Positions 10,199 to 23,751 of a stretch of 32,175 nt of DNA are shown here, piece by piece. The position numbers and the translations under genes were made by a program. Numbering within the stretch: the stretch's first letter is position 1; the number at the start of each line of letters is the position of its first letter. The stretch is from contig JAFAJV010000012.1 in the NCBI GenBank assembly GCA_019235995.1, positions 1 to 32,175 on the forward strand. Direction: 5' to 3'. Source of the stretch: Vulcanimicrobiota bacterium (lineage in GTDB: Bacteria > Vulcanimicrobiota > Vulcanimicrobiia > Vulcanimicrobiales > Vulcanimicrobiaceae). The notes under the pieces were generated by a model. That model was not told where the DNA came from, ran no database searches, and worked only from the letters and a program-made list of their open reading frames with translations.

Positions 10199-12676
10199 TT
10201 GGCGTTGCGGAAGGAGCGCGCCTTCACAGAACCCAAACGACGGGGCGTGAGCGCGCGCATTTACGGTTCCGGCGAGCGAATTGCGGTCTATGAGGTCGAC
10301 GACACGCAGCTCGCGGTCGGCAGCACGCTGGGCGGGCCCAAAGGAGCGATGCTCATCAAGGCGTCCGGCGCCATCGAGAAGTTCTACGCGAGCGACGTCG
10401 GAGAGACGGTGATGGCCGGCGTCTCGGTACAGTTCTGGGACGGTCCCACGGGCGCCGAGCGCGTGAAAATCGACGGAAAGTTTTCCATCTATCCGGAGTG
10501 CCAACAGTACGACTACCGCATCGAAGACGGTGTAAGAGTCGTCGAGACGCTCTTCGTGCTGAATCGCTACGGCTGCGGGAATCGAGTCGATCCGCTCACC
10601 GGCTATCTCATCGTAGAGATTCGCAACGACTCGGGCGAAACGCATGAGTTCGACAGCATGGTCGGCGCGTTTTTGCGGGGCACCACCCTGCGGGACGTAC
10701 GCGCAGTTTACGATGCGAAACGCCGGGCGGTAGTCGCGTGGAACGCTTCCGCGCCGAAAGTGGCGCGCGCCATCGGGTGCTCGAAGGCGCCGACGAGCTT
10801 CGAGGTAACCGACGATCACGGCGCCATGAACCGCGCGCACTTCGTCGGACGGCTCTCCGGCCGTGTCTCCACCGAGCTCAGCGAGCCAATCGCGTTGTTT
10901 CATCACCATCTCCGCCTTGCGCCGCACACGCGGCGGCGCCTTGCGTTTACACTGGTGGCCTCCGCGGACGGAGCGCGCGCAGCGCGACGAGCATACGATA
11001 CGGCTCCCGACGCCGCGATCGCACACGAGCAAACGAAGCGTCACTACAGGGCCGTGCTGGAGGAGGCCGTCGTCGTGACCCCGGACAGCAATGTCAACCG
11101 CGGGGTGCTGTGGGCGAAGGCGAACATGCTGCGGACGCAGCTCTGCGCCCCGACCGGCTGGTGCTTCGTCAACGATCCGACGCGCTCGAACAACAGCGTC
11201 GGCCGCGACACGGCGTCGTTTGCGGTGGGCTGCGATTACGTTATGCCTGCTTTTTCGCGCGAATCGTTGCGCTGGTACCTCCGCAACGCGCAGTCCAGCG
11301 GCAAGATCGTCGAATACTACGATGTGCGCAACGGCGAAGCCGAGGATTACGGCCTGAACGTCAACGACGACACGCCGCTCGTCATCTTGGCGGTGGCCCA
11401 CCACTTTCTCGTCACGGGCGACGTCGGCTTCGTTCGGGAGTCCTACGCCGCGGTGAAGCGTTCGGCGGACTATCTCCTGTCACAGCGCGACGAGCGCGGC
11501 TTGGTCTGGTGCACGTCCACGGGGACGGGGATGCAGGGAATCGTAGGCTGGCGCAACATCATCGACGACTATCGCATCTCAGGCGCGTCGACGGAGGTCA
11601 ACGCGGAGTGCTATGCGGCCTTCGTCGCGATGGCGAGCATGGCGAACACCCTCGGGAAGAAGAGCGACGCGCGGCGCTACGAACTCGAGGCGGCGGCGCT
11701 GCGCCAGGCGATCAACCGGCACCTGCTCGATCCCGACACGGGGCTCTACTATCTCAACATCGACGTCGACGGGCGTCCGCGCTCGAACGTCACGTCGGAC
11801 ATGCTGTTTCCGGTTTTCCTCGGCGTCGCGGACCACGACACCGCCGCGCGGATCATCAGCCGGCTGAGCGTCCCGCCGTTCTGGACCGAGGCCGGCATTC
11901 GGACCGTGCCGCGCGACGACCTGGAGTACAGCCCGACGCGCAGCTGGGGGCTGCTCGGCGGCGTGTGGGTAGGCATGAACTTCATTTTCGCGCTCGCCGC
12001 AGCCCGCTTCAACTCCGGGTTCATGGCGTACGCGTTGGGCGCGAGCTTTCAGCATTACTCGCGCGACCCGGGCCGCAACAACACGGTGCCGGGCCAGTTC
12101 TCGGAATGGCTGCACGGCGAGACGCTGACCAATCAGGGGATGATGCTGTCGCCCTGGTACCCGCCGCGTTACGTCTGGTCGGCGATCGAAGGCGCGGCGG
12201 GATTGGATCCGCGCGGCCGCACGCCGGCCTGCAACCCGCGCCTCGCGCCCAACTGGAAGTGGCTCGGCGTACGCAACCTGCACTTTCGCGGAAGGTCCCT
12301 CAGCTGGTTCATCGCGCGGCTGCCCGAGCCGACGCTCTATGCCAATTTCGAGTTTGCGACCGAATACGCACTCCAGACCTACACGCACGACGTTACGCCG
12401 CTGCTGCGGCTCAGCGAGGACGTCACCGAGATCGCCCTGCGACGCGGACGCGACCTCGTCATCTTCGTCGGCAACACGGCGGAGCGTACGGTCACGGCGC
12501 CGCTGCGGTTCAACCGCGCGCTGCCGGGAAGATACCACGTCCGGTATTTCACGAGCATGCTGGGCGAGTGGATCCATCGGAAGAATCTCGACGGTCGCGA
12601 GGTCGGCCGCGGCTTCGCGATCGATATCGACGCGCTGGGCTTCAGCATCATCGAGCTTCAGAGGCTGAAGACGTAG
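10199..12676 (+). CDS. Six-hairpin glycosidase-like protein (amylo-alpha-1,6-glucosidase / GH63-like)
   Basis: Up to 825 residues. The start is uncertain: TTG at 10199 or 10205, or GTG at 10247. The N-terminal third is beta-rich with a substrate-domain look. The C-terminal part has the alternating helices of an (alpha/alpha)6 barrel with family-like motifs: LNVNDDTPLVILAVAHHFL (D390/D391, candidate acid), NVTSDMLFPVFLGV, TEAGIRTVPRDDLEY, SWGLLGGVWVGMNFIFALA, and GQFSEWLHGET (E636/E641, candidate base). These resemble glycogen-debranching and GH63-type enzymes that cleave alpha-glucosidic bonds. There is no signal peptide, so the enzyme is probably cytosolic, acting on storage glycan or compatible solutes. 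The exact GH family and substrate cannot be assigned by eye. Its 3' end overlaps the convergent PQQ dehydrogenase gene by 19 bp. Confidence 0.85.
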   Translation: MALRKERAFTEPKRRGVSARIYGSGERIAVYEVDDTQLAVGSTLGGPKGAMLIKASGAIEKFYASDVGETVMAGVSVQFWDGPTGAERVKIDGKFSIYPECQQYDYRIEDGVRVVETLFVLNRYGCGNRVDPLTGYLIVEIRNDSGETHEFDSMVGAFLRGTTLRDVRAVYDAKRRAVVAWNASAPKVARAIGCSKAPTSFEVTDDHGAMNRAHFVGRLSGRVSTELSEPIALFHHHLRLAPHTRRRLAFTLVASADGARAARRAYDTAPDAAIAHEQTKRHYRAVLEEAVVVTPDSNVNRGVLWAKANMLRTQLCAPTGWCFVNDPTRSNNSVGRDTASFAVGCDYVMPAFSRESLRWYLRNAQSSGKIVEYYDVRNGEAEDYGLNVNDDTPLVILAVAHHFLVTGDVGFVRESYAAVKRSADYLLSQRDERGLVWCTSTGTGMQGIVGWRNIIDDYRISGASTEVNAECYAAFVAMASMANTLGKKSDARRYELEAAALRQAINRHLLDPDTGLYYLNIDVDGRPRSNVTSDMLFPVFLGVADHDTAARIISRLSVPPFWTEAGIRTVPRDDLEYSPTRSWGLLGGVWVGMNFIFALAAARFNSGFMAYALGASFQHYSRDPGRNNTVPGQFSEWLHGETLTNQGMMLSPWYPPRYVWSAIEGAAGLDPRGRTPACNPRLAPNWKWLGVRNLHFRGRSLSWFIARLPEPTLYANFEFATEYALQTYTHDVTPLLRLSEDVTEIALRRGRDLVIFVGNTAERTVTAPLRFNRALPGRYHVRYFTSMLGEWIHRKNLDGREVGRGFAIDIDALGFSIIELQRLKT

Positions 12677-14343
12677 AGCGTCCCGCCGAGCGGGATGCGG
12701 CGGAACATCGGCGCGACTTTCTTTCCGCCCCAGAAGGGCGTGACGCCGCCGTATCCGTTCTGTACGGCGACGTACTGCTTGCCGTCTACGCGATACGTTA
12801 CGGGTTGGCCGACGAAGCCGGAGTGCGCGACGAACGTCCACAGCGGTCTACCCGTTCGCGAATCGAGCGCGTAGAATTTGCGGTCGGGCGTGCCGCTGAA
12901 CACGAGGCCGCCGCCCGTCGAGAGCGTGCCGTCGGTCCAAGGGTACTTCGTCTCCTTCGTCCAGACGCGCGCGCCGGTGCGGAGGTCGAAGGCTTGGAGC
13001 GCGCCCCAGCCGTAGGCGCCCGGCATCGGCATCACCGCGAAGCCTTCATCCAGCGCGCCGGCGCCGGGGTGGAAGAGCTTCGGCGGTTTCTGCCCGCTGA
13101 GCTTCATGCAGGTGTGCATCGTGGGAACGAAAACGTCGTGTGCCGCGGGATCGAGCGCGAACGCCCACCAGTTATCGGCGCCGAAGAAGGCCGGGCACGT
13201 GAAGATCGCCTGTCCGATCTGCGGCTTGAGCGCCGCGTCGACCGTTCCGATCCGCCGGCTGCGATCGTAGCCGGTTACCGACGTCGCCATCGTATAGCGC
13301 TTCATGTAGATGAGCGAGCCGTCGCGTCGATCGATGAGGTAGAGCCAGCCGTTGCGTGCCGCCTGAAAGAGCACCGGACGGGGCTTTCCACCGATCGTGA
13401 GGTTTGCGAGCAGCGGCGTCGCCGTCGCGTCGTAGTCCCACGGATCGTTGGGAGTCTGTTGAAAGTACCACTTGAGGCGCCCCGTGTCGGCGTCGAGCGC
13501 TAGGATCGAGTCCGTATAAAGGTTTTGTCCCGGATGCTCGAGCCAGAGCCACGGCGACGGGTTGCTCGTCCCGACGTAGATCGTGTTGGTCGCCGCGTCG
13601 TAGCTCGGGGTCATCCACGGACAGGCGCCGCCGTGGCGATAGGTCGCGCCCGGCCACGTCTTGCCGCCCGGCTCGCTCGGCGATGGTACCGTGTAGAAGC
13701 GCCAGCGCTGCGCGCCGGTGGCGGCGTCCAGCGCCTCGAGGAAGCCGCGCGCCCCGTACTCGCCACACGAGACGCCGGCGATGATGCTGCCGTGCACGGC
13801 CAGTGGTGCGGCCGTCATGGCGTAGCCGATTCCGGGCGCCGCGAGGGCCCGATCCCAGTCGACCTTTCCGCTGCGCGCGTCGATCGCCACGACGTGTGCG
13901 TCCAGCGTCGCGAGATAGGCATCGTTGCCGTAGAGGGCCACGCCGCGGTTGACCATGTCGCAGCAGACCGTGCGCAGGGCGACCTTCGGAATGTTCCTCG
14001 AGTACTCCCAGAGCGGTTTTCCCGTGACCGCATCCATCGCGTAGACCCTGTCCAGAGGCGTCGTGGCGATCATCGTGCGGCCGTTGACGATCGGCGGCGC
14101 CTCGTAGCCCTCCGGTATCGAGAACGAGCGAGTGAAAACGACGTGCAGCCGCGCGACGTTGCGGGCGTTGATCTGATCGAACGGCGCGTGCGCGTGCGCG
14201 TCGTAGGTGCGCAGGTACATCAGCCAGCCATCATCGGACGCGGCGTCCTTCAGGCGCGCATCGGTGACGGGTTGCCACGCCGCGCCGCCGCCGCTGCACG
14301 ACGTGGTAACGAGAAGACCCAAGAGGCAGAGCGCGGGTCTCAT
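12658..14343 (-). CDS. PQQ-dependent alcohol dehydrogenase with lanthanide-type DYD motif
   Basis: 561 residues. The N-terminus is a lipoprotein-like signal with TTSC at 13-16, so it is probably anchored on the periplasmic side. Quinoprotein hallmarks are in order: vicinal cysteines C127-C128 (RTVCCDMVNRG), GVSCGEYGARGFLEAL with metal ligand candidate E195, HGGACPWMTPSYD, GTSNPSPW with N261, and TPNDPWDYDA with catalytic D303 and the extra D305. Propeller repeats with W motifs follow to the C-terminus. The Asp two residues after the catalytic Asp marks the lanthanide-dependent XoxF/PedH clade, whereas calcium enzymes usually have Ala there. No CxxCH is present, so electrons must go to a separate cytochrome. 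The neighbouring CtaG-cytochrome c fusion gene, which this ATG overlaps by 4 nt, is an obvious candidate. The alcohol substrate is unknown. Confidence 0.9.
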   Translation of the reverse strand: MRPALCLLGLLVTTSCSGGGAAWQPVTDARLKDAASDDGWLMYLRTYDAHAHAPFDQINARNVARLHVVFTRSFSIPEGYEAPPIVNGRTMIATTPLDRVYAMDAVTGKPLWEYSRNIPKVALRTVCCDMVNRGVALYGNDAYLATLDAHVVAIDARSGKVDWDRALAAPGIGYAMTAAPLAVHGSIIAGVSCGEYGARGFLEALDAATGAQRWRFYTVPSPSEPGGKTWPGATYRHGGACPWMTPSYDAATNTIYVGTSNPSPWLWLEHPGQNLYTDSILALDADTGRLKWYFQQTPNDPWDYDATATPLLANLTIGGKPRPVLFQAARNGWLYLIDRRDGSLIYMKRYTMATSVTGYDRSRRIGTVDAALKPQIGQAIFTCPAFFGADNWWAFALDPAAHDVFVPTMHTCMKLSGQKPPKLFHPGAGALDEGFAVMPMPGAYGWGALQAFDLRTGARVWTKETKYPWTDGTLSTGGGLVFSGTPDRKFYALDSRTGRPLWTFVAHSGFVGQPVTYRVDGKQYVAVQNGYGGVTPFWGGKKVAPMFRRIPLGGTLYVFSL

Positions 14344-15404
14344 GGGCCCATGAACGCCTTGGACGCGGCGGCCGCCGCCGAGGAGAGCGGCGCCGCCCCG
14401 GGTGGGTGGCCATGCACCTTCAATAGGAACGCCATGATCCCGAGGTATTCATCAGGACGCAAACCGCCGGCGTTGCCGGCGGGCATGTGCGCCGTCATAT
14501 ATGTCCACACGTAGCTTACCGTCTCCCATTGTACGTTGCCGCCGCCGCCCGCCAGCGCCGGGCCGAAGTTGCCTGCGAGGTCGGCGCCATGGCATTCGGC
14601 GCAGTTTTCATAGAAAAGGATCTGGCCTTTCACCGCTTGATCGCCGGTATACGAAGGCGCGACCGGCGCGGTCGGCGCCGCGCCGGCGCCGTGTAGCGCG
14701 AGGACGAGGAGGAGAAGGACCAGAGGCGGCACGGCGGCGGCGATGGTTTCGCGACGAGCCCAGACTCCCAGTGTGAGGAGCAGCGCGGCCAACACGATCA
14801 TTCCGCCCGCGATCCACATCAGCGCGGCGGCGTCGTGCTGATCCCGCAAGGCGGCAGAGACGGAGCCTTGGAGCGCGACGTAGTGCGGGTAGAGCGGTGC
14901 CCGCGCGCTCCCGAGCGCCATCCCGAGCAGCGCCCCCTGGGGCAGCGCGAGCGTAAGGAAGAGCAGACGCGCCGGGAAGCTGCACGGCCGCAGCGGGGGC
15001 GGCGCGAGGACCGGCAGCCAAAAAAACGCGCCCGCGGTGAAGTAGACCAGGTGCTCCGCGAAGTGGATCGGCGCGCTCTCCAGCGAGCGTTCGTACAGGC
15101 CGGAGAAATGCGTCAGCCACAGCGTCGCAACGAAGACGGCGAGCGCAACGTGGGGTGAGGTGACGACGTGCAGCGGACGCGTCGCATGCACGAACCGCGC
15201 CGTCTTCGCCTTCCCCGCAACGGCCGCGAACGTCTCGAAGGGCCGCGCGAGCAGCACCAACGCCGGGACGCCGTACAATATGACGAGGTGCTGCAGCATA
15301 TGCCACGTGAACGAGCGGTCCGCGAGCGCGTCGACCGGCGGTGCGAGCGCGGCCACACCCAGCACGAGCGCCACCGTGAGCCACACGATGTTCGCGCGCT
15401 TCAC
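14340..15404 (-). CDS. ctaG: CtaG-type cytochrome oxidase assembly protein fused to a C-terminal cytochrome c domain
   Basis: 354 residues from a GTG at 15404 that overlaps the qcrB stop (GTGA, 4 nt). Residues about 1-235 are polytopic and match Caa3_CtaG: FTWHMLQHLVILYGVPALVL, then LWLTHFSGLYERSLE, and HFAEHLVYFTAGAFFWLPVL. His-rich membrane segments fit copper delivery to oxidase. After a Pro/Ala linker, residues about 252-332 form a class I cytochrome c with heme motif CAECH (268-272) and a likely Met ligand M307 (AHMPAG). The frame is open much further upstream (to 16343) but only as a shadow of qcrB. The fusion places an electron carrier beside the oxidase-assembly domain, between the bc complex and the PQQ dehydrogenase whose ATG overlaps its stop. 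The cytochrome may relay electrons from that enzyme (inference). Confidence 0.9.
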   Translation of the reverse strand: MKRANIVWLTVALVLGVAALAPPVDALADRSFTWHMLQHLVILYGVPALVLLARPFETFAAVAGKAKTARFVHATRPLHVVTSPHVALAVFVATLWLTHFSGLYERSLESAPIHFAEHLVYFTAGAFFWLPVLAPPPLRPCSFPARLLFLTLALPQGALLGMALGSARAPLYPHYVALQGSVSAALRDQHDAAALMWIAGGMIVLAALLLTLGVWARRETIAAAVPPLVLLLLVLALHGAGAAPTAPVAPSYTGDQAVKGQILFYENCAECHGADLAGNFGPALAGGGGNVQWETVSYVWTYMTAHMPAGNAGGLRPDEYLGIMAFLLKVHGHPPGAAPLSSAAAAASKAFMGP

Positions 15405-16771
15405 GGCAGCGGCTCCTCGTCGAAGCCGCCCTGAAGGTTGCGGCGCAGGCGGACGCGGGGCGCCTTCTCGACGCCGCCGCGGGATCGAAGCTCGGCGGCG
15501 AGCGCGTAGGCGATGGCGAAACCGAGGATTGGTCCGATAATGCAGAAGTAGCGGTAGAATACCGTGATCGTGGTGATCGGGGCGTGCACGTAACGCGCCT
15601 GCACGTCGTCGCCGCCGGCGAGCGTGAGCCCCAGGGCGAAGACGAATGCCGCCACGCCGAGCGCCGTGCGCCAGGGTACGTCGCGCGGATTGTCGAGCAG
15701 CTGGTGCGATGTTCGATCGCGGCGCAACGCGGCATGGATCCACGGCCAGATCAGAAGGCCCACGAAGAGGACGGCCGGCAACAGCACGGCCGGCCAAAAC
15801 GGCGATGGGATCGTGTGCCCCCAGAGGTGCGCCGCGAACGCGGGACCCATGCGCAGCGCGCCCTCGAGCCAGCCGATGTACCAGTCGGGTTGCGCGGGGC
15901 TCGACGCGCGCCACGGCTCGTACGGCCCCCACAGCCAGATCGGATTGATCTGCACGAGCGCTCCCAGCGCGCCAAGCACCGCCACGACGGCAAACAGCAG
16001 CGCGATCGACTTGGCCGCGTAACGAGGGAACATCGGCGAGCCCACGACGTTGTGCTCGGTGCGGCCCGGGCCGGGGAATTGCGCGTGCTTTTGGCGCCAC
16101 ACGATCGCGAGATGCAGCGCGATCAGCGTCGCGATGATCGCCGGCATGAGGTAGATGTGCACGACGTACAGGCGCTCGACCAACTGTTGGGTCGGATAGA
16201 CGCCGCCGATCAGCAAGAACGTCAGCCACGTTCCGAGCACGGGAACCGACTCCAGGACCGCCACGGCGATGCGCAGCCCGATCCCGCTGAGCAGGTCGTC
16301 CGGGAGCGAGTACCCCGTGAAGCCCTCGAACAACGCGGCCCAAAAGAGGAGCACGCCGAGGATCCAGTTGATCTCGCGCGGCCTGCGGAAGGCCGCGGTA
16401 AAGAAGATTCGTCCCATGTGCGTCACGATTCCGGCGACGAAGATCAGCGCGGCCCAGTGATGGATCTGGCGCACGAGCAGACCGCAGTTGACGATGAAGC
16501 TGAGGTCCAAGGTCGACGCATACGCATGCGAGACGTGCGCGCCGTCGAGCAGTCGGTATGGCCCGTGGTAGACCGTCTGCGTCGCGCTAGGCCTGAAAAA
16601 GAAGGCGAGGAACGTTCCGGTCGCGAGCAGCACCGCGAACACGTACAAGTTGATTTCGCCGAGCATGAACGACCAATGATCGGGAAACGCCTTGCGCAGA
16701 GCGTGGCGCACGAAGTGCGCGCTCCCCAAGCGGTCGTCGACCCAATCCAAAAACCGCTCAACGTTCGTCAT
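15401..16771 (-). CDS. qcrB: Cytochrome bc complex cytochrome b subunit
   Basis: 456 residues, integral membrane. It holds both b hemes through two His pairs: QIHHWAALIFVAGIVTHMGR, and VVHIYLMPAIIATLIALHLAIV. The quinol-oxidation loop carries PDWY (QPDWYIGWLEG) instead of the mitochondrial PEWY, as in Actinobacteria. GFTGYSLPDDLLSGIGLRI is also typical of QcrB. It takes electrons from menaquinol or ubiquinol and passes one to the Rieske protein and one across the membrane. The ATG at 16771 follows the Rieske stop by 24 nt. The stop overlaps the ctaG fusion start by 4 nt. At 456 residues it lacks the long C-terminal extension of mycobacterial QcrB. Confidence 0.96.
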   Translation of the reverse strand: MTNVERFLDWVDDRLGSAHFVRHALRKAFPDHWSFMLGEINLYVFAVLLATGTFLAFFFRPSATQTVYHGPYRLLDGAHVSHAYASTLDLSFIVNCGLLVRQIHHWAALIFVAGIVTHMGRIFFTAAFRRPREINWILGVLLFWAALFEGFTGYSLPDDLLSGIGLRIAVAVLESVPVLGTWLTFLLIGGVYPTQQLVERLYVVHIYLMPAIIATLIALHLAIVWRQKHAQFPGPGRTEHNVVGSPMFPRYAAKSIALLFAVVAVLGALGALVQINPIWLWGPYEPWRASSPAQPDWYIGWLEGALRMGPAFAAHLWGHTIPSPFWPAVLLPAVLFVGLLIWPWIHAALRRDRTSHQLLDNPRDVPWRTALGVAAFVFALGLTLAGGDDVQARYVHAPITTITVFYRYFCIIGPILGFAIAYALAAELRSRGGVEKAPRVRLRRNLQGGFDEEPLP

Positions 16772-16795: not shown

Positions 16796-17608
16796 TCAGC
16801 TCCTTTCCCAGAAGCCGGGGCCCACGGGTTCGGGAAAGTCGCCGAGCGCGACCAGCGTGCCGTCGCCGGTGACGGCGATCGGCAGTCGCGGCAGCGCGTG
16901 ATCGGCGGGCCCTGAGACGACCGCTCCGCCCGCGACGACGTCGAACACCGATTGGTGACAGGGACAGAGGAGCTGCCGCGCCGCCGCGCGATACAGCGCG
17001 ACCGGGCAGCCCGCGTGCGTGCAGAGACGCGAGTATGCGACATAGCCGCGCACGCTGTCGGCGACGCCGTCGGGCAGGCGGATCAGCATGGCTTGCGATT
17101 GAGCGTCGCCGACCGCGCCGCTCGGGAACACGGCGATCGCGGAGTCGACGTTCAGGCTGCCGACGTCGACGATGCTACCGTCCTCGCGTACCAGTGCGGA
17201 CCCTTTGCGCCAGCGCGTGTGAAAGAGCGCGCCGGCGGGCGCGGGACCGAGCGAGCGAATCGGGACGATGAGCGCCGCGGCGAACGCGCCGAGCGCCGCG
17301 GAGAGCAGTCCGAGGAGCATGCGCGGGCGCGAGACGGCGCGCAGATCGCTGCGCACCTCGCCGCGCTCCGCCGCGCGCTCGCCCCTCGACGAGGGATACG
17401 TCTCGATCTCGTCGGCGACGCGCTCGGGCGGGACGATCCAAAAGGCCCAGCCGAGCGCGGCGGCACACAAGCCCGCCGCGGCGACCGCCATGGCGAGGCC
17501 TTCGTAGAGGCGATCGCCGCCGCCGAAGTATGCGGCGATGAAACAGCCGCTGCCGAGCACGGCGACGATGAGTGCGGCAGCGATGGCGTTCTGCTCGCGC
17601 GGGCTCAT
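16796..17608 (-). CDS. qcrA: Rieske iron-sulfur subunit with three N-terminal membrane helices
   Basis: 270 residues. The start at 17608 overlaps the ctaE stop (ATGA). Three hydrophobic segments lie at about 8-28, 36-60 and 97-117, the actinobacterial QcrA topology rather than the single helix of proteobacterial Rieske proteins. The cluster domain has CTHAGC (196-201; C196 and H198 as ligands) and CPCHQS (215-220; C215 and H218 as ligands), with C201 and C217 placed for the stabilising disulfide. It accepts an electron from quinol at QcrB and passes it to the c heme of QcrC. A longer open frame continues upstream to 18289 but runs through ctaE in another frame and is not real. Confidence 0.96.
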   Translation of the reverse strand: MSPREQNAIAAALIVAVLGSGCFIAAYFGGGDRLYEGLAMAVAAAGLCAAALGWAFWIVPPERVADEIETYPSSRGERAAERGEVRSDLRAVSRPRMLLGLLSAALGAFAAALIVPIRSLGPAPAGALFHTRWRKGSALVREDGSIVDVGSLNVDSAIAVFPSGAVGDAQSQAMLIRLPDGVADSVRGYVAYSRLCTHAGCPVALYRAAARQLLCPCHQSVFDVVAGGAVVSGPADHALPRLPIAVTGDGTLVALGDFPEPVGPGFWERS

Positions 17609-18195
17609 CGCACGAAGTAGATGGTTGCGAAGATGCCGAGCCACACGATGAAGACGAAGTGCCAGTAGTAGGTCATCGCCTCCGCGCCTGCCCGCCGGTT
17701 GACCAGCAGCGCGCGGCTGCGCATGCCGATCAGGAGCGCTATTAGGATGCCGATGCCGGCGACGACGTGCAGCAAGTGGAAGCCGGTCATCGTGTAATAG
17801 ATCGAGCCATAGGCGTTGGTTGCGATCGTGAAGGCGTCTTTCGAGTAGCCGTGGATCGCCACCGACACGAAGCCGATCGCCGCGACGATCGCGCTGGCCG
17901 TCCAACAGCGCGCGGCGCGCATGCGCCCGCGATCCATGGCGCGCGTGGCGAGCATCATGACCGCCGAGGCCGCGAAGAGCAGAAACGTTCCAAAAGCGGC
18001 TTCGGCGACGTCGAGATGGACCTCGGGAGGCGGCCATTGCCCGCGATTGGCACGAAGGTCGTAGTATGCGGCGAACAGCGCGGCAAAAAACATCAGTTCC
18101 GACGCGAGAAACAGAACGACGCCGAGGACGAGTGGATGCGCGCGAACGGGCAACGGCGCAAGCGGCCGAGCGCTGCCGTTCGCCGAAGTAGGCAT
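17605..18195 (-). CDS. ctaE: Cytochrome c oxidase subunit III
   Basis: 196 residues with five hydrophobic segments. Signatures are HPLVLGVVLFLASELMFFAALFAAYY near the N-terminus, GTFLLFAASAVMMLATRAMDRG, YYTMTGFHLLHVVAGIGILI, and YYWHFVFIVWLGIFATIYF at the end. The conserved Glu in ASELMFF and the HLLHV histidines are present. It is a structural subunit of the aa3 oxidase that may help proton uptake. It heads the minus-strand operon ctaE-qcrA-qcrB-ctaG-PQQ dehydrogenase and is divergent from ctaC across 45 bp, so oxidase and bc genes can be controlled from one short region. Confidence 0.96.
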   Translation of the reverse strand: MPTSANGSARPLAPLPVRAHPLVLGVVLFLASELMFFAALFAAYYDLRANRGQWPPPEVHLDVAEAAFGTFLLFAASAVMMLATRAMDRGRMRAARCWTASAIVAAIGFVSVAIHGYSKDAFTIATNAYGSIYYTMTGFHLLHVVAGIGILIALLIGMRSRALLVNRRAGAEAMTYYWHFVFIVWLGIFATIYFVR

Positions 18196-18240: not shown

Positions 18241-18906
18241 GTGGGTAGAAACGCGGCAGTGGAGTGGTTGTTGAATCCGGCGTCCGCACAGGGCGCCGCG
18301 ATGCGCACCGACTGGTACGTCTTCATCGGCGCCGGTGTCTTCGTCGGAATCTACGTCTACGCGTGCATCGTATGGTGTCTCGTGGCGTATCGCCGGCGCG
18401 CCGGGCGAGAGGCGTCGCAGTTCAGCGGGAACACGCCGCTGGAGATCCTCTATGTCGCCGTTCCGCTGGCATTGGTTCTGGCGCTCTTCGGCGTGACGTT
18501 CGCGATCGAGATGCCGATCGACCGCGTCGCGGATCCGCCGAACCGGGTCGCCGTCACCGCATTTCGCTGGTCGTGGCGCTTCGAATATCCGGGAGGCCTG
18601 ACGACGCTCGGCACCCCGATGGCGCCCCCGACGCTCTATCTGCCCGCGGGACAACCCACCGAAATCGATCTTCGCTCCGCCGATGTGACGCATTCGTTTT
18701 GGGTGCCGGCCTTTCTGTTCAAGCGCGACGCTATTCCCGGGATGAACAACGTGTTCGAAGTCACGCCGAACCGGACCGGACGCTTCCTCTCGCGGTGCGC
18801 GCAGTTCTGTGGACTGGACCACGCACTCATGACGTTCGTGGTGCGCGTCGTGCCGAGCGCGAGTTATGCGCGCTATCTCGCCACGAACGGGGCAGTCGTG
18901 CCGTGA
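18241..18906 (+). CDS. ctaC: Cytochrome c oxidase subunit II
   Basis: About 221 residues from a GTG at 18241; a GTG at 18259 is an alternative, and neither has a clear ribosome-binding site. Two transmembrane helices lie at about 25-50 and 67-90. The periplasmic CuA domain follows: THSFWVPAF with H151, KRDAIPGMNN, and CAQFCGLDHALM giving C186, C190, H194 and M197. The usual Glu in the CxE loop is Gln188 here; the copper contact at that position is through the backbone, but the Glu side chain normally helps bind Mg. It receives electrons from cytochrome c (probably QcrC or the fused cytochrome) and passes them to heme a. First gene of ctaC-ctaD-ctaF. Confidence 0.95.
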   Translation: MGRNAAVEWLLNPASAQGAAMRTDWYVFIGAGVFVGIYVYACIVWCLVAYRRRAGREASQFSGNTPLEILYVAVPLALVLALFGVTFAIEMPIDRVADPPNRVAVTAFRWSWRFEYPGGLTTLGTPMAPPTLYLPAGQPTEIDLRSADVTHSFWVPAFLFKRDAIPGMNNVFEVTPNRTGRFLSRCAQFCGLDHALMTFVVRVVPSASYARYLATNGAVVP

Positions 18907-20453
18907 TCGAGTGGATGACGACGACCGACCACAAGAAGATCGGGATCATGTACGTCGTATCGACTCTGACCTTTTTCGTCGCCGCCGCGGTGCTGGCGAC
19001 GCTGATCCGCGCGCAGCTGGCGGTGCCGGAGAATTCGTTCCTGAGCGCGCACGCATACAACCAGATCTTCACGCTGCACGGCACGGCGATGATATTTCTC
19101 GTCATCGCTCCCTTCGGAATCGGGCTGGCCAACTATCTCGTTCCGCTCCAGATCGGCGCGCCCGACGTCGCATTTCCTCGCCTCAACGCGACGGGATTAT
19201 GGCTATTCGTGCTGGGCGGCATCACCGTGTTCGCCGGCCTCGCCGCCTACGGAGGCGGAGCGGCTACGGGCTGGACGGCCTACGCTCCGCTCGACGAGTT
19301 CTTCGAGGGAACCGGGGCGGGGCAGGATCTGTTCTTCATCGGCCTGCTGTTGACGAGCGTCTCCACGATCCTAACGTCGCTCAACTTGCTCGTGACGGTC
19401 TTCCTTTTCCGCGCCCCCGGCATGACGATGTGGCGCATTCCGATATTCACGTGGGAGATCGTCGCGACGGCCGTCCTGGTGCTGATGGCGTTCCCATCCT
19501 TGGCGGCGGCGTTTGCGATGGCACTGATCGAGCGGCACATGGGAGGGCACTTTTTCGATCCGGCCTTCGGCGGCAACCCGGTGCTCTATCAGCACCTGTT
19601 CTGGTTCTTCGGGCATCCCGAAGTGTACGTCATGATACTGCCGTATTTCGGCATCGTCACGGAGATCGTCGCGACGTTCTCGCGTAAGCCGGTTTTCGGT
19701 TACGTGGGGATGGTGATCGCCGCTTTTGCCATCGCCGGTCTGTCGCTCGGCGTCTGGGCGCACCATATGTTTACTACCGGGGCGGTCAGTAATCCGTTCT
19801 TTTCGGCCGTCTCCTTTCTCATCGCCGTACCCACCGGAGTGAAATTCGTCAATTGGATCGGCACGATGTGGAAGGGCTCGATCGTCTTAACGGTCCCGAT
19901 GCTTTTCGCCGTCGGGTTCTTGCTCAATTTTTTGATCGGCGGCATCACCGGGGTGATGATCGCCTCGCCGCCCATAGACTATCACGCCCACGACAGCTAC
20001 TTCATCGTGCAGCACTTCCACTACACGATCGGGGGCGGCAGCATGTTCGCGCTCTTCGGGGCGCTCTATTTCTGGTTTCCGAAGATGTTTGGTGTCCGGC
20101 TCGGCGAGCGCATCGGGCGCTGGGTGTTCGCGCTGCTCTTCGTCGGATTCAACGCGACGTTCATCCCGATGGGCTTCATGGGAATGGAGGGCATGGCGCG
20201 CCGCGTCTACACGTACCCGGCGATCGGGCACTTGCCGCTGCTCAACGCGATCGCGACGTTTGGTGCGGGTCTCATGACGATCGGCACAATAGCGTTCTTC
20301 GTCGACGTGCTCGTCTCCATACGGCGCAGAGCGCCCGTCGAAGACAACCCGTGGGGCGGCTATAGCCTCGAGTGGATGACCTCTTCGCCGCCTCCGGAAT
20401 TCAACTTCCACGCGCTTCCGCCGATTCGCGGCCGCCGACCTGCGTTAGAGTGA
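18903..20453 (+). CDS. ctaD: Cytochrome c oxidase subunit I (A1-type heme-copper oxidase)
   Basis: 516 residues from a GTG at 18903 overlapping the ctaC stop (GTGA). Heme and copper ligands are all present: H59 (TLHGTAM) for heme a; H238 with the cross-linked Y242 in FGHPEVYVM; H287/H288 in WAHHMF for CuB; and H371/H373 in HFHYTI. Glu240 in GHPEVY identifies the A1 type with a D-channel Glu. Lys314 in PTGVKFVNW is the K-channel residue. The C-terminal SPPPEFNFHALPP is typical of actinobacterial-like enzymes. It reduces oxygen to water and pumps protons. It overlaps ctaF by 4 nt. Confidence 0.98.
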   Translation: MIEWMTTTDHKKIGIMYVVSTLTFFVAAAVLATLIRAQLAVPENSFLSAHAYNQIFTLHGTAMIFLVIAPFGIGLANYLVPLQIGAPDVAFPRLNATGLWLFVLGGITVFAGLAAYGGGAATGWTAYAPLDEFFEGTGAGQDLFFIGLLLTSVSTILTSLNLLVTVFLFRAPGMTMWRIPIFTWEIVATAVLVLMAFPSLAAAFAMALIERHMGGHFFDPAFGGNPVLYQHLFWFFGHPEVYVMILPYFGIVTEIVATFSRKPVFGYVGMVIAAFAIAGLSLGVWAHHMFTTGAVSNPFFSAVSFLIAVPTGVKFVNWIGTMWKGSIVLTVPMLFAVGFLLNFLIGGITGVMIASPPIDYHAHDSYFIVQHFHYTIGGGSMFALFGALYFWFPKMFGVRLGERIGRWVFALLFVGFNATFIPMGFMGMEGMARRVYTYPAIGHLPLLNAIATFGAGLMTIGTIAFFVDVLVSIRRRAPVEDNPWGGYSLEWMTSSPPPEFNFHALPPIRGRRPALE

Positions 20454-20843: not shown

Positions 20844-21566
20844 TCAGCCGTCTTTGCCCGCGGTGCCGATCGCGCGCACGAACAGCACGAGCGCGCCGAG
20901 CCCAAAGAGCCATGCCGCGAAGCCTTCGGCGACCGGCCCCACGTGCCCCAGAGAGAACCCCCCGGCGTCTTCGCCTTCCGGCGCCGCCGCTTGGGTCTGC
21001 GAATAATTCACGTAGCGCGCGATGTCGCTGACGTCCTGATCGCTCAGCACGTCGGGGCCGAAGCGCGGCATCACTGATGGCCCCGCCCGAATCGCCTCGG
21101 CGACCTGGAACACCGTCGCCTCGCCGAGCGAAGGCGCGACGTCGGCCGCGCCGATTGACGCGCCGCTTCCGGCCGCCCCGTGGCACTGGGCGCAATTTTC
21201 GGCGAAAAGTGCGCGCCCGCGCGCGACGTCGCCCGGCATGACGAGCGGAAGCGACGCGCTCGGCCGAACCGGGGAGAAGGAGAGGATGTAGCGCACGAGC
21301 TCCGCCATCTGTGGCTGCGTGAAGCGCGGCTCGCGATGGATCTCGTTGACGTCCGGTACGGAGGCCGGCATCCGCCCGGTATCCAGCATGAAATGGATGT
21401 CCGGCGCGCTCTTGCCGATCAGGGAGGGCGCGACGTTGGAACCCTCGCCGTGGGCGCCGTGGCACGATGCGCACTGCGTCCCGTACAGATAGGCGGCGTC
21501 CTGGGCGCACGCGGCCTTCGACGGTAGCACGGCGCACAGCGCGAGGGCCGCAAACGCGATCCTCAC
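20844..21566 (-). CDS. qcrC: Diheme cytochrome c subunit of the bc complex
   Basis: 240 residues from a GTG at 21566, seven nt after the upstream stop with AGGGG between; a GTG at 21590 would overlap the upstream gene. The signal peptide (about 1-21) ends at AACAQ. Two class I cytochrome c domains follow, with heme motifs CASCH (32-36) and CAQCH (125-129) and Met ligand candidates M66 (TGRMPAS) and M166 (PSVMPRFG). A C-terminal membrane helix lies at about 211-232. The diheme plus anchor design is that of actinobacterial QcrC, which hands electrons straight to CuA of the oxidase without a soluble cytochrome. Unusually it is not next to qcrA and qcrB but follows the AI-2E-type permease gene, convergent with ctaF. 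Confidence 0.92.
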   Translation of the reverse strand: MRIAFAALALCAVLPSKAACAQDAAYLYGTQCASCHGAHGEGSNVAPSLIGKSAPDIHFMLDTGRMPASVPDVNEIHREPRFTQPQMAELVRYILSFSPVRPSASLPLVMPGDVARGRALFAENCAQCHGAAGSGASIGAADVAPSLGEATVFQVAEAIRAGPSVMPRFGPDVLSDQDVSDIARYVNYSQTQAAAPEGEDAGGFSLGHVGPVAEGFAAWLFGLGALVLFVRAIGTAGKDG

Positions 21567-21573
21567 GGGGCCC

Positions 21574-22749
21574 CTACGATTCCGTCGCACGCGGGTCGAC
21601 CTGCGTGCGCGGTGCTTGGGTAAGCCCGGGTTTGAGCTGCGCGTTCGTGACGGCCTCCTCCGCGAGCACGTGCGTCAGGATCACGCGCACGATCCCTGCG
21701 AGCGGGACGGCGACGAGGAGGCCGATGAAGCCGAAGATCTTGCCGCAGATGAGCAGAGCGAAGATGACGCCCAGCGGCGTGATCTTGACCGTGGTGCTGA
21801 TAATGCGCGGCGCAAGCACGTGCGCCTCGAGTTGGTTGATGACGGTAAACACGACGATCGCTCCAAGCGCCGCGCCGGCGCCGTTGAAGATCAGCGCCAC
21901 GATGACCGCAGGTATCGCGCCCGCGATCGGCCCGATGTAGGGGATGATGTCCATGATGCCCGCCCACGCGCCAATGATCACGGCGTAGCGAACGTGCAGG
22001 ATCATGAGGCCGACGATGGCGAGGATGCCGACGAAGACGGCTACGATGATCTGCCCCCGTATGAATCCGCCGATTACCTGGTCGACGTCGTATAGGATCG
22101 CCACCACGCGGCCCCGCGATCGCGGTCTGAAGCTCTGAACGAAGAAACGTTTGATCGTGGACGACTCGGCCAGCATGTAGATCGAGACGACTGGAATGGC
22201 GATTGCCACCGCGCCGATCCCGACGGCGATCTCGAGCGCGTTGACCACCTTGGTCGTATAGGCGGCCGCGTTGCGCTCGACGTCGGCGCTTACCTGGCTG
22301 GGCATTTTCATGAGCCACTGCTGCGCCGTAGCCGGAAGGTGCGTGAAAAACGGGTTGTTGGGCCCCTCGGCGTAGACGCGCACCGTGCGCTCGATCGTCG
22401 GCCAGTCGTGGACGAGCCCCTCGAGCTGCATCACGGCGGGCGGCACCACCAAATAGAAGATCGCGGCCACCACGACGGCTGCGCTGAGGTAGACGATCGA
22501 CAGCGCGGCCCACAGCGGCAGCCGGCGGTTGAGCCATGCGATCGCGGGATAGAAAAAGTAGGCCAGCAGTATTCCGCCGATCAAGATAACCGCGATGCCG
22601 GCGAAGTCGCGCAACACCGCGATCGCCTGCGCGAGGATGAAGTAACCGATGGCGATCGCGGCAAGCAGCTTGAACCATGCGTCCGCCGCGTTACGCCAGC
22701 TAGGCCCACGCTCGGCCGTGCGGCCGATGGGCCTTCCAGCTTGGGGCAT
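21574..22749 (-). CDS. AI-2E family permease
   Basis: 391 residues with about eight membrane segments in the PF01594 pattern. An N-terminal helix pair (FAGIAVILIGGILLAYFFYPA, and LWAALSIVYLSAAVVVAAIFY) is followed by a soluble helical stretch and the conserved region QVIGGFIRGQIIVAVFVGIL, IMDIIPYIGPIAGAIPAV, INQLEAHVLAPRIISTTVKI, and PLGVIFALLICGKIFGFIG. Family members export autoinducer-2, act as Na+/H+ antiporters, or have unknown cargo, so no substrate is assigned. The start at 22749 is divergent from the frameshifted secreted protein gene. The stop is 7 nt before qcrC, suggesting one transcript. Confidence 0.93.
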   Translation of the reverse strand: MPQAGRPIGRTAERGPSWRNAADAWFKLLAAIAIGYFILAQAIAVLRDFAGIAVILIGGILLAYFFYPAIAWLNRRLPLWAALSIVYLSAAVVVAAIFYLVVPPAVMQLEGLVHDWPTIERTVRVYAEGPNNPFFTHLPATAQQWLMKMPSQVSADVERNAAAYTTKVVNALEIAVGIGAVAIAIPVVSIYMLAESSTIKRFFVQSFRPRSRGRVVAILYDVDQVIGGFIRGQIIVAVFVGILAIVGLMILHVRYAVIIGAWAGIMDIIPYIGPIAGAIPAVIVALIFNGAGAALGAIVVFTVINQLEAHVLAPRIISTTVKITPLGVIFALLICGKIFGFIGLLVAVPLAGIVRVILTHVLAEEAVTNAQLKPGLTQAPRTQVDPRATES

Positions 22750-23439: not shown

Positions 23440-23751
23440 ATGCGTCGCAGGATCGTTGCGCTGCTCGCGCTGCCGATCGCTGTGGCGTGCAGCTCCGCCG
23501 GCACGCAGAGTAATGGCGATCGGTCCGCGGGCGCCGAGATCTATCGCACGAATTGCGCGACGTGCCACGGCCCGACCGGCGTCGAGGGCGGCGTCGTGGG
23601 GCCGTCGCTGCGGCACGAGTCAAGGCGCATGGATTACGGCGCGACCATCTCGTGGATCGAAGATCCACAGCCGCCGATGCCGCGTCTGTATCCTGAGTTC
23701 TTGACGGAGAAACAGGTGCGCGACCTCGCCGCGTACGTGAACGCATTGTAG
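23440..23751 (+). CDS. Small lipoprotein-like cytochrome c
   Basis: 103 residues. The ATG follows directly on the stop of the preceding frame. The signal sequence ends in AVACSS with Cys17 as the probable lipidation site, although Ala rather than Leu is at the -3 position. A single class I cytochrome c domain follows, with CATCH at 39-43 and the likely Met ligand M80 (QPPMPRLYPEFLT). The C-terminal helix KQVRDLAAYVNAL is typical. It would be a membrane-tethered periplasmic electron carrier, able to serve the aa3 oxidase or the quinoprotein dehydrogenase encoded nearby; the partner is not shown by sequence. Confidence 0.9.
   Translation: MRRRIVALLALPIAVACSSAGTQSNGDRSAGAEIYRTNCATCHGPTGVEGGVVGPSLRHESRRMDYGATISWIEDPQPPMPRLYPEFLTEKQVRDLAAYVNAL

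Follow-up and report, generated by a model that had tools for sequence, protein, structure and literature searches.

A PQQ alcohol dehydrogenase with a lanthanide-type site and its likely cytochrome c partner in a bc-aa3 respiratory operon of Eremiobacterota

Gene content of the locus

The window (the whole stretch of DNA that was analysed, 32,175 nt) belongs to a 2.6-Mb draft genome (G000, 95.7% complete). The following genes and features of the window were considered:

12658–14343, minus strand: PQQ alcohol dehydrogenase (P0001) with a DYD lanthanide-type site (TIGR03075, active-site residues, tree, AlphaFold2 model)
14340–15404, minus strand: CtaG-cytochrome c fusion (PF09678 and PF13442)
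15401–16771, minus strand: cytochrome b, QcrB, actinobacterial type (NF050120, 571 bits, above the cut-off of 500)
16796–17608, minus strand: Rieske iron-sulfur subunit, QcrA-like (PF00355; NF050121, 193 bits, below the cut-off)
17605–18195, minus strand: cytochrome c oxidase subunit III, CoxC (PF00510)
18262–18906, plus strand: cytochrome c oxidase subunit II (CoxB) with CuA motif, divergent, start approximate (PF00116)
18915–20453, plus strand: cytochrome c oxidase subunit I, CoxA (PF00115; NF050116, 676 bits, below the cut-off)
20844–21590, minus strand: diheme cytochrome c, QcrC-like (two CXXCH; NF050122, 177 bits, cut-off 200)
23440–23751, plus strand: small monoheme lipoprotein cytochrome c (PF13442/PF00034)

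The minus-strand run starts with CoxC (18195–17605), continues with the Rieske protein, cytochrome b and the CtaG-cytochrome c fusion, and ends with the dehydrogenase gene (read from 14343 to 12658), while CoxB and CoxA (18262–20453) are encoded divergently from it. Consecutive frames overlap by 4 nt at three of the four joints of the run (CoxC/Rieske, cytochrome b/CtaG and CtaG/dehydrogenase), and the two overlaps described in the first-pass annotation were found as given there, i.e., the dehydrogenase start with the stop of the CtaG-cytochrome c gene (ATGA, 4 nt), and the start of the latter with the qcrB stop (GTGA, 4 nt). The fusion protein consists of a Caa3_CtaG domain (aa ~1–222), a hydrophobic helix (221–239) and a monoheme cytochrome c with the motif CAECH (aa ~245–354).

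With QcrA, QcrB, QcrC and the oxidase genes together, the operon is predicted to encode an actinobacterial-type bc-aa3 complex. QcrB alone exceeded the cut-off of its actinobacterial NCBIfam model, while the Rieske protein, QcrC, CoxC and CoxA matched the corresponding actinobacterial models below theirs. The likeness to the actinobacterial bcc-aa3 supercomplex therefore covers QcrB and the matches of the QcrA, QcrC, CtaE and CtaD-like proteins to the same families; the differences are that these four matches fall below cut-off, that the host belongs to Eremiobacterota, and that an extra, alcohol-derived electron entry is proposed for the complex. The CoxA and QcrB of this locus do not make up the sole respiratory chain: since a second cytochrome b (G000:C13:151888-152871, 29% identity, with kin across most of the family) and a second CoxA (G000:C152:5404-6903, 47% identity) were found, the genome has more than one.

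The dehydrogenase and its cofactor

P0001 (561 aa, GC3 0.86) scored 511.3 bits in the NCBIfam profile search against TIGR03075, the methanol/ethanol family of PQQ dehydrogenases (cut-off 480.05). As this score exceeds the cut-off (511 vs. 480 bits) and the neighbourhood of P0001-type genes recurs in six further genomes, the gene and its context are not a matter of chance. In an alignment with nine solved enzymes retrieved from a PDB search, the active-site Glu, Asn and catalytic Asp of the family were all recovered together with its vicinal Cys pair, and C127, C128, E195, N261, D303 and the additional D305 stand at exactly the numbers that had been proposed for them. There is no CXXCH motif in the protein, so it lacks a heme of its own, as had also been claimed. 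Its supposed lipoprotein character fared less evenly, as the lipobox-like LVTTSC of P0001 is a weak signal and that of close orthologues is clear (LLSAC, LAGC, LAAC); the protein is exported and, in its sub-clade, probably a lipoprotein.

The first-pass annotation had made its reading depend on PQQ synthesis, and PqqB, PqqC, PqqD and PqqE were found together on a 232-kb contig of the genome, each above its curated cut-off. Across the phylum, nine of the ten genomes that encode a P0001-clade dehydrogenase also have pqqC, compared with 29 of the 139 others; no match was obtained in G088, which has the dehydrogenase in the operon. This association is supportive rather than specific, because pqqC is widespread in the genus even where a P0001-type dehydrogenase is absent.

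The metal site

The lanthanide assignment had been based on D305. In the nine reference sequences, whose metals we take to be those given by the deposited titles and established knowledge, the corresponding position is occupied by Asp in each of the four solved lanthanide enzymes (PedH, two XoxF5 and XoxF2) and by another residue in each of the five solved calcium enzymes (Ser in ExaA, Thr in two quinohemoprotein alcohol dehydrogenases, Ala in two MxaF). P0001 and PedH align around D305 with no gap, and this Asp is present in all members of the P0001 clade, whose hosts include Eremiobacterota, Gammaproteobacteria and Deinococcus; a point against the assignment is that the P0001 sub-clade has A or S in place of the N of the 'GVN/ATN' motif. 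The residue assignment rests on this ungapped alignment rather than on model geometry, since the active-site loops of the predicted structure are of moderate confidence (pLDDT about 54–68 as 10-residue block means, about 68 for the loop with D305).

The second Asp has been treated as diagnostic, yet Asp-x-Asp is also reported for membrane glucose dehydrogenase, an enzyme that takes Ca, Mg, Zn or Sr (PMC11996626). D305 alone is for this reason no proof, and lanthanide dependence of P0001 is likely only. The separation on which the assignment was built did hold among solved methanol/ethanol-family enzymes, but not for the Asp-x-Asp pair in general. P0001 could then be a Ca (or Mg) enzyme, wired to the oxidase in the same way, that tolerates its second Asp as membrane glucose dehydrogenase does. 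A LutA/PedA1-type importer was found in none of 148 relatives, and no convincing lanthanide importer was recognised in the lineage, which fits such an enzyme; the exceptionless split at position 305 between solved lanthanide and calcium enzymes and the retention of D305 throughout the clade speak against it, and overall we consider a Ca or Mg enzyme rather unlikely.

One contig of the assembly (C57, L161:1-3740) encodes a NiFe hydrogenase large subunit, a PedA1/LutA-type protein (TIGR03863, 473 bits, the sole match among 149 genomes of the phylum) and a PedA2-like YVTN propeller. Pseudomonas requires its counterpart, PedA1A2BC, to grow when lanthanide is scarce (PMC6839425). With a length of only 3.7 kb, an importer protein seen in no other genome of the phylum and genes of proteobacterial appearance (73% to Burkholderia for the hydrogenase, 57% to Rhizobium for the binding protein), the contig was dropped as support for lanthanide use; its composition does not settle the origin, and it is probably foreign, a binning contamination.

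Pairing of dehydrogenase and cytochrome across loci

The bc-aa3 loci of the family (n = 34) were compared, 32 of which were included in a QcrB tree. A P0001-type dehydrogenase lies at the operon in seven genomes (G000, G051, G072, G088, G117, G060, G094), and four further members of the clade are encoded outside such an operon (in G106, G089 and G027, and as a second copy in G117). The operons with P0001-type genes fall into two well-separated QcrB lineages, with the gene order CtaG-cytochrome c-dehydrogenase in the first and CtaG-QcrC-dehydrogenase-cytochrome c in the second. In three other genomes (G122, G120, G091), the same operon carries a different DYD dehydrogenase with Lys for Arg and an N-terminally fused cytochrome c (L129:10217-12265, L132:8827-10875, L133:4825-6855); pqqC was found in none of these three genomes. 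The remaining 24 of the 34 loci have no adjacent PQQ alcohol dehydrogenase.

When searched for with its own sequence, the specific monoheme cytochrome c was recovered at all ten loci with an adjacent PQQ alcohol dehydrogenase and at none of the 24 loci that lack one, where only partial matches to the diheme QcrC were obtained and where the CtaG of the relatives stops near residue 222, the cytochrome domain being absent. The Fisher value of this co-occurrence (8e-9) overstates the independence of the data because the loci share ancestry. On the QcrB tree, presence of the dehydrogenase requires at least seven changes, and presence of the P0001 type four, and the cytochrome comes and goes with the dehydrogenase at each. 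Four forms of the cytochrome itself were distinguished: joined to CtaG (G000, G072), free (G051, G088, G117, G060, G094), placed as an N-terminal extension on the dehydrogenase (G122, G120, G091), and, in Rhodanobacter and Solimonas, fused to a different N-terminal domain beside the dehydrogenase. The likeness of this last domain to a periplasmic binding protein is only visual, and it gave no Pfam match. In the CtaG fusion, the hydrophobic helix 221–239 precedes the cytochrome as the export helix does in the free form. Heme attachment requires the periplasm, and the dehydrogenase is located in this same compartment.

The occurrence at 10 of 10 loci with the dehydrogenase and 0 of 24 without it suggests that the specific cytochrome is likely the dedicated electron acceptor of the dehydrogenase, and its four forms, by fusion or shared neighbourhood, are strong, if indirect, indications of a working partnership. 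The pairing is limited to this one cytochrome family, because the unrelated small lipoprotein cytochrome c (23440–23751 in the window; conserved, with a WIEDPxPPMPxLYP motif) has relatives beside bc-aa3 loci with or without the dehydrogenase; owing to this distribution, it is better seen as a possible general electron carrier than as specific to the dehydrogenase.

Two side observations were made at these loci. A single open frame of G060 apparently encodes both CtaG and the diheme QcrC (L071:8838-10298), another fusion at the operon. The Rhodanobacter cassette (L012:7596-15658) consists of genes for an aldehyde dehydrogenase, a P0001-type dehydrogenase, the domain-cytochrome fusion, a TonB receptor and DUF779, and makes Rhodanobacter a cultured relative with a P0001-type cassette; its dehydrogenase is 50% identical to that of the window.

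Proposed electron route

The residues, the family, the clade, the operon, the joint occurrence of dehydrogenase and cytochrome and the PQQ genes were observed directly; in the following scheme, the lanthanide in the site, the identity of the substrate and all steps of electron transfer are inferred. P0001 would be a periplasmic, probably membrane-anchored enzyme that oxidises a short-chain alcohol, with a light lanthanide and PQQ held by E195, N261, D303 and D305. In this family, PQQ is the oxidant of the alcohol; the metal serves as the Lewis acid and D303 is the base. The resulting PQQH2 would pass its electrons one at a time to the monoheme cytochrome c fused to CtaG, the latter being the assembly factor for the aa3 oxidase encoded alongside, and this cytochrome would deliver them to the oxidase (CuA), either directly or with the diheme QcrC or the 23440–23751 lipoprotein cytochrome c as an intermediate, an entry that would lie below the quinol pool. 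As the genes for bc and aa3 are similar to those of locked supercomplexes, a private entry cytochrome may be plausible. An aldehyde dehydrogenase gene and a DUF779 gene lie near the Rhodanobacter relative of P0001, and the presence of both is a hint that the substrate is a short alcohol.

Direct wiring of the dehydrogenase to the respiratory complex, as claimed in the first-pass annotation, appears well supported by the gene arrangement in that a dehydrogenase and a specific cytochrome recur together in bc-aa3 operons; the claim is weakened in that only a minority of such operons carry the dehydrogenase, that four members of the P0001 clade lie outside such an operon, and that the genome has a second cytochrome b and a second CoxA. 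The operon could instead be shared for regulation only, with the electrons going to a general cytochrome c pool (for example the 23440–23751 protein) or to the second respiratory chain. The small lipoprotein cytochrome beside loci of both kinds and the second cytochrome b and CoxA speak for such an arrangement; the restriction of the specific cytochrome module at these loci to those with the dehydrogenase, and its physical fusion to a dehydrogenase in three genomes, speak against it; we judge shared regulation alone to be unlikely. The account as a whole, in which a lanthanide-PQQ alcohol dehydrogenase feeds the aa3 oxidase through a CtaG-fused cytochrome, is in our view fairly probable.

Structure and phylogeny

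An AlphaFold2 model of P0001 was built from 18 sequences (mean pLDDT 80). Its best PDB match was PedH (6ZCW), both by Foldseek (E 2e-52) and in VIA-align (Z 47.9, rmsd 2.3, 527 residues aligned, 37% identity), with other PQQ dehydrogenases close behind and BamB about 18 Z units lower in VIA-align; of the lanthanide enzymes, PedH is also the nearest to P0001 in sequence. In a maximum-likelihood tree of 58 sequences, P0001 fell into a clade of its own (100/100) composed of Eremiobacterota, Gammaproteobacteria and one Caballeronia sequence. Together with Deinococcus, this clade formed a group (99/98) that was sister to PedH and ExaA at 83/81, so its placement next to these enzymes is weak; PedH and ExaA grouped with each other (100/100) with the P0001 clade outside, and XoxF and MxaF formed another clade (100/100) that did not include P0001.

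The relation to XoxF-type methanol dehydrogenases was considered with the XoxF3-like proteins of acidobacterial cox/ctaG clusters in mind, which have similar neighbours and the DYD motif in common with P0001 (PMC10875860). The exclusion of P0001 from the 100/100 XoxF/MxaF clade, in a tree without XoxF3 references, led us to reject a XoxF identity, and other proteins of the phylum do fall into that clade; a XoxF3-like enzyme is very improbable. That P0001 is a propeller with no enzymatic function, of the BamB or 'empty' quinoprotein kind, is barely credible, as the TIGR04528 (acido-empty-quinoprotein) score of 349 bits, the one point in its favour, is far below the cut-off of 650, TIGR03300 (BamB) gave 85 bits against 285, TIGR03075 was passed, BamB is a distant structural match, the catalytic and PQQ residues are intact and PQQ synthesis genes are present. 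P0001 is a methanol/ethanol-family PQQ alcohol dehydrogenase, and the earlier view of it as a real PQQ enzyme was borne out; of the outcomes that the first-pass annotation had named as refuting its reading, neither a grouping with BamB-like propellers nor a lack of PQQ synthesis was seen.

Relation to known systems

P0001 shares with PedH/ExaF (PQQ-ADH type 2b, 6ZCW) the same residue set with the extra Asp, the lack of heme and the catalytic Arg; it differs by its separate clade, the respiratory operon, its own cytochrome c and the absence of a ped-type regulator or importer near the gene. Type II quinohemoprotein alcohol dehydrogenases (1KV9, 1KB0) and a membrane alcohol dehydrogenase (8GY2) have the same propeller and a cytochrome c joined to the dehydrogenase, but 1KV9 and 1KB0 have Thr at position 305, Lys for Arg and a C-terminal heme domain, whereas at the P0001 locus the cytochrome is not part of the dehydrogenase and is joined to the factor for oxidase assembly.

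A similar arrangement is reported for XoxF3 in Acidobacteria, which lies beside CoxI-III, CtaG, CytC, XoxG and XoxJ (PMC10875860). These clusters of Acidobacteria and Gemmatimonadetes likewise combine a DYD quinoprotein with CoxI-III, CtaG and cytochrome c (PMC10875860); in the P0001 locus, the dehydrogenase is not XoxF, the operon also contains a Rieske/cytochrome b pair, CtaG and the cytochrome c form one protein, and neither XoxJ nor NRAMP was recognised within the window. As XoxF3 beside cox/ctaG was already published, a link between a quinoprotein and respiration is not new as such, and the suggestion that this wiring had gone undescribed was too strong. In the literature searched, no report was found of the P0001 clade, its link to a cytochrome b/Rieske operon or the CtaG-cytochrome fusion, which is weak evidence of novelty, and for Eremiobacterota and lanthanides the phylum was mentioned for its abundance only.

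The broadest reading, to which we give about even chances, is that lanthanide alcohol dehydrogenases of a lineage apart from both XoxF and PedH, present in Eremiobacterota, Gammaproteobacteria and a few others, were repeatedly inserted together with a portable cytochrome c into the bc-aa3 operon as a second, alcohol-fed entry, the extreme case being the cytochrome fused to the oxidase assembly factor. Biochemically confirmed lanthanide enzymes comprise only XoxF-type methanol dehydrogenases and PQQ-ADH type 2b (PMC11996626). If true, our reading would widen this list by another clade, the third, which is separate from both and has all residues of a lanthanide-type site, from an uncultured soil phylum. 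The portable cytochrome (free or in three fusions) would offer a direct way to test how quinoproteins that lack heme are linked to an oxidase, with the sister operons lacking the dehydrogenase as natural controls.

No report naming XoxF in Eremiobacterota was found in the literature searched. DYD proteins of the XoxF clade that look like true XoxF were observed in this phylum at nine loci (L049, L050, L051, L052, L053, L143, L144, L146, L150), and they form a sub-clade (100/100) apart from XoxF5 and XoxF2.
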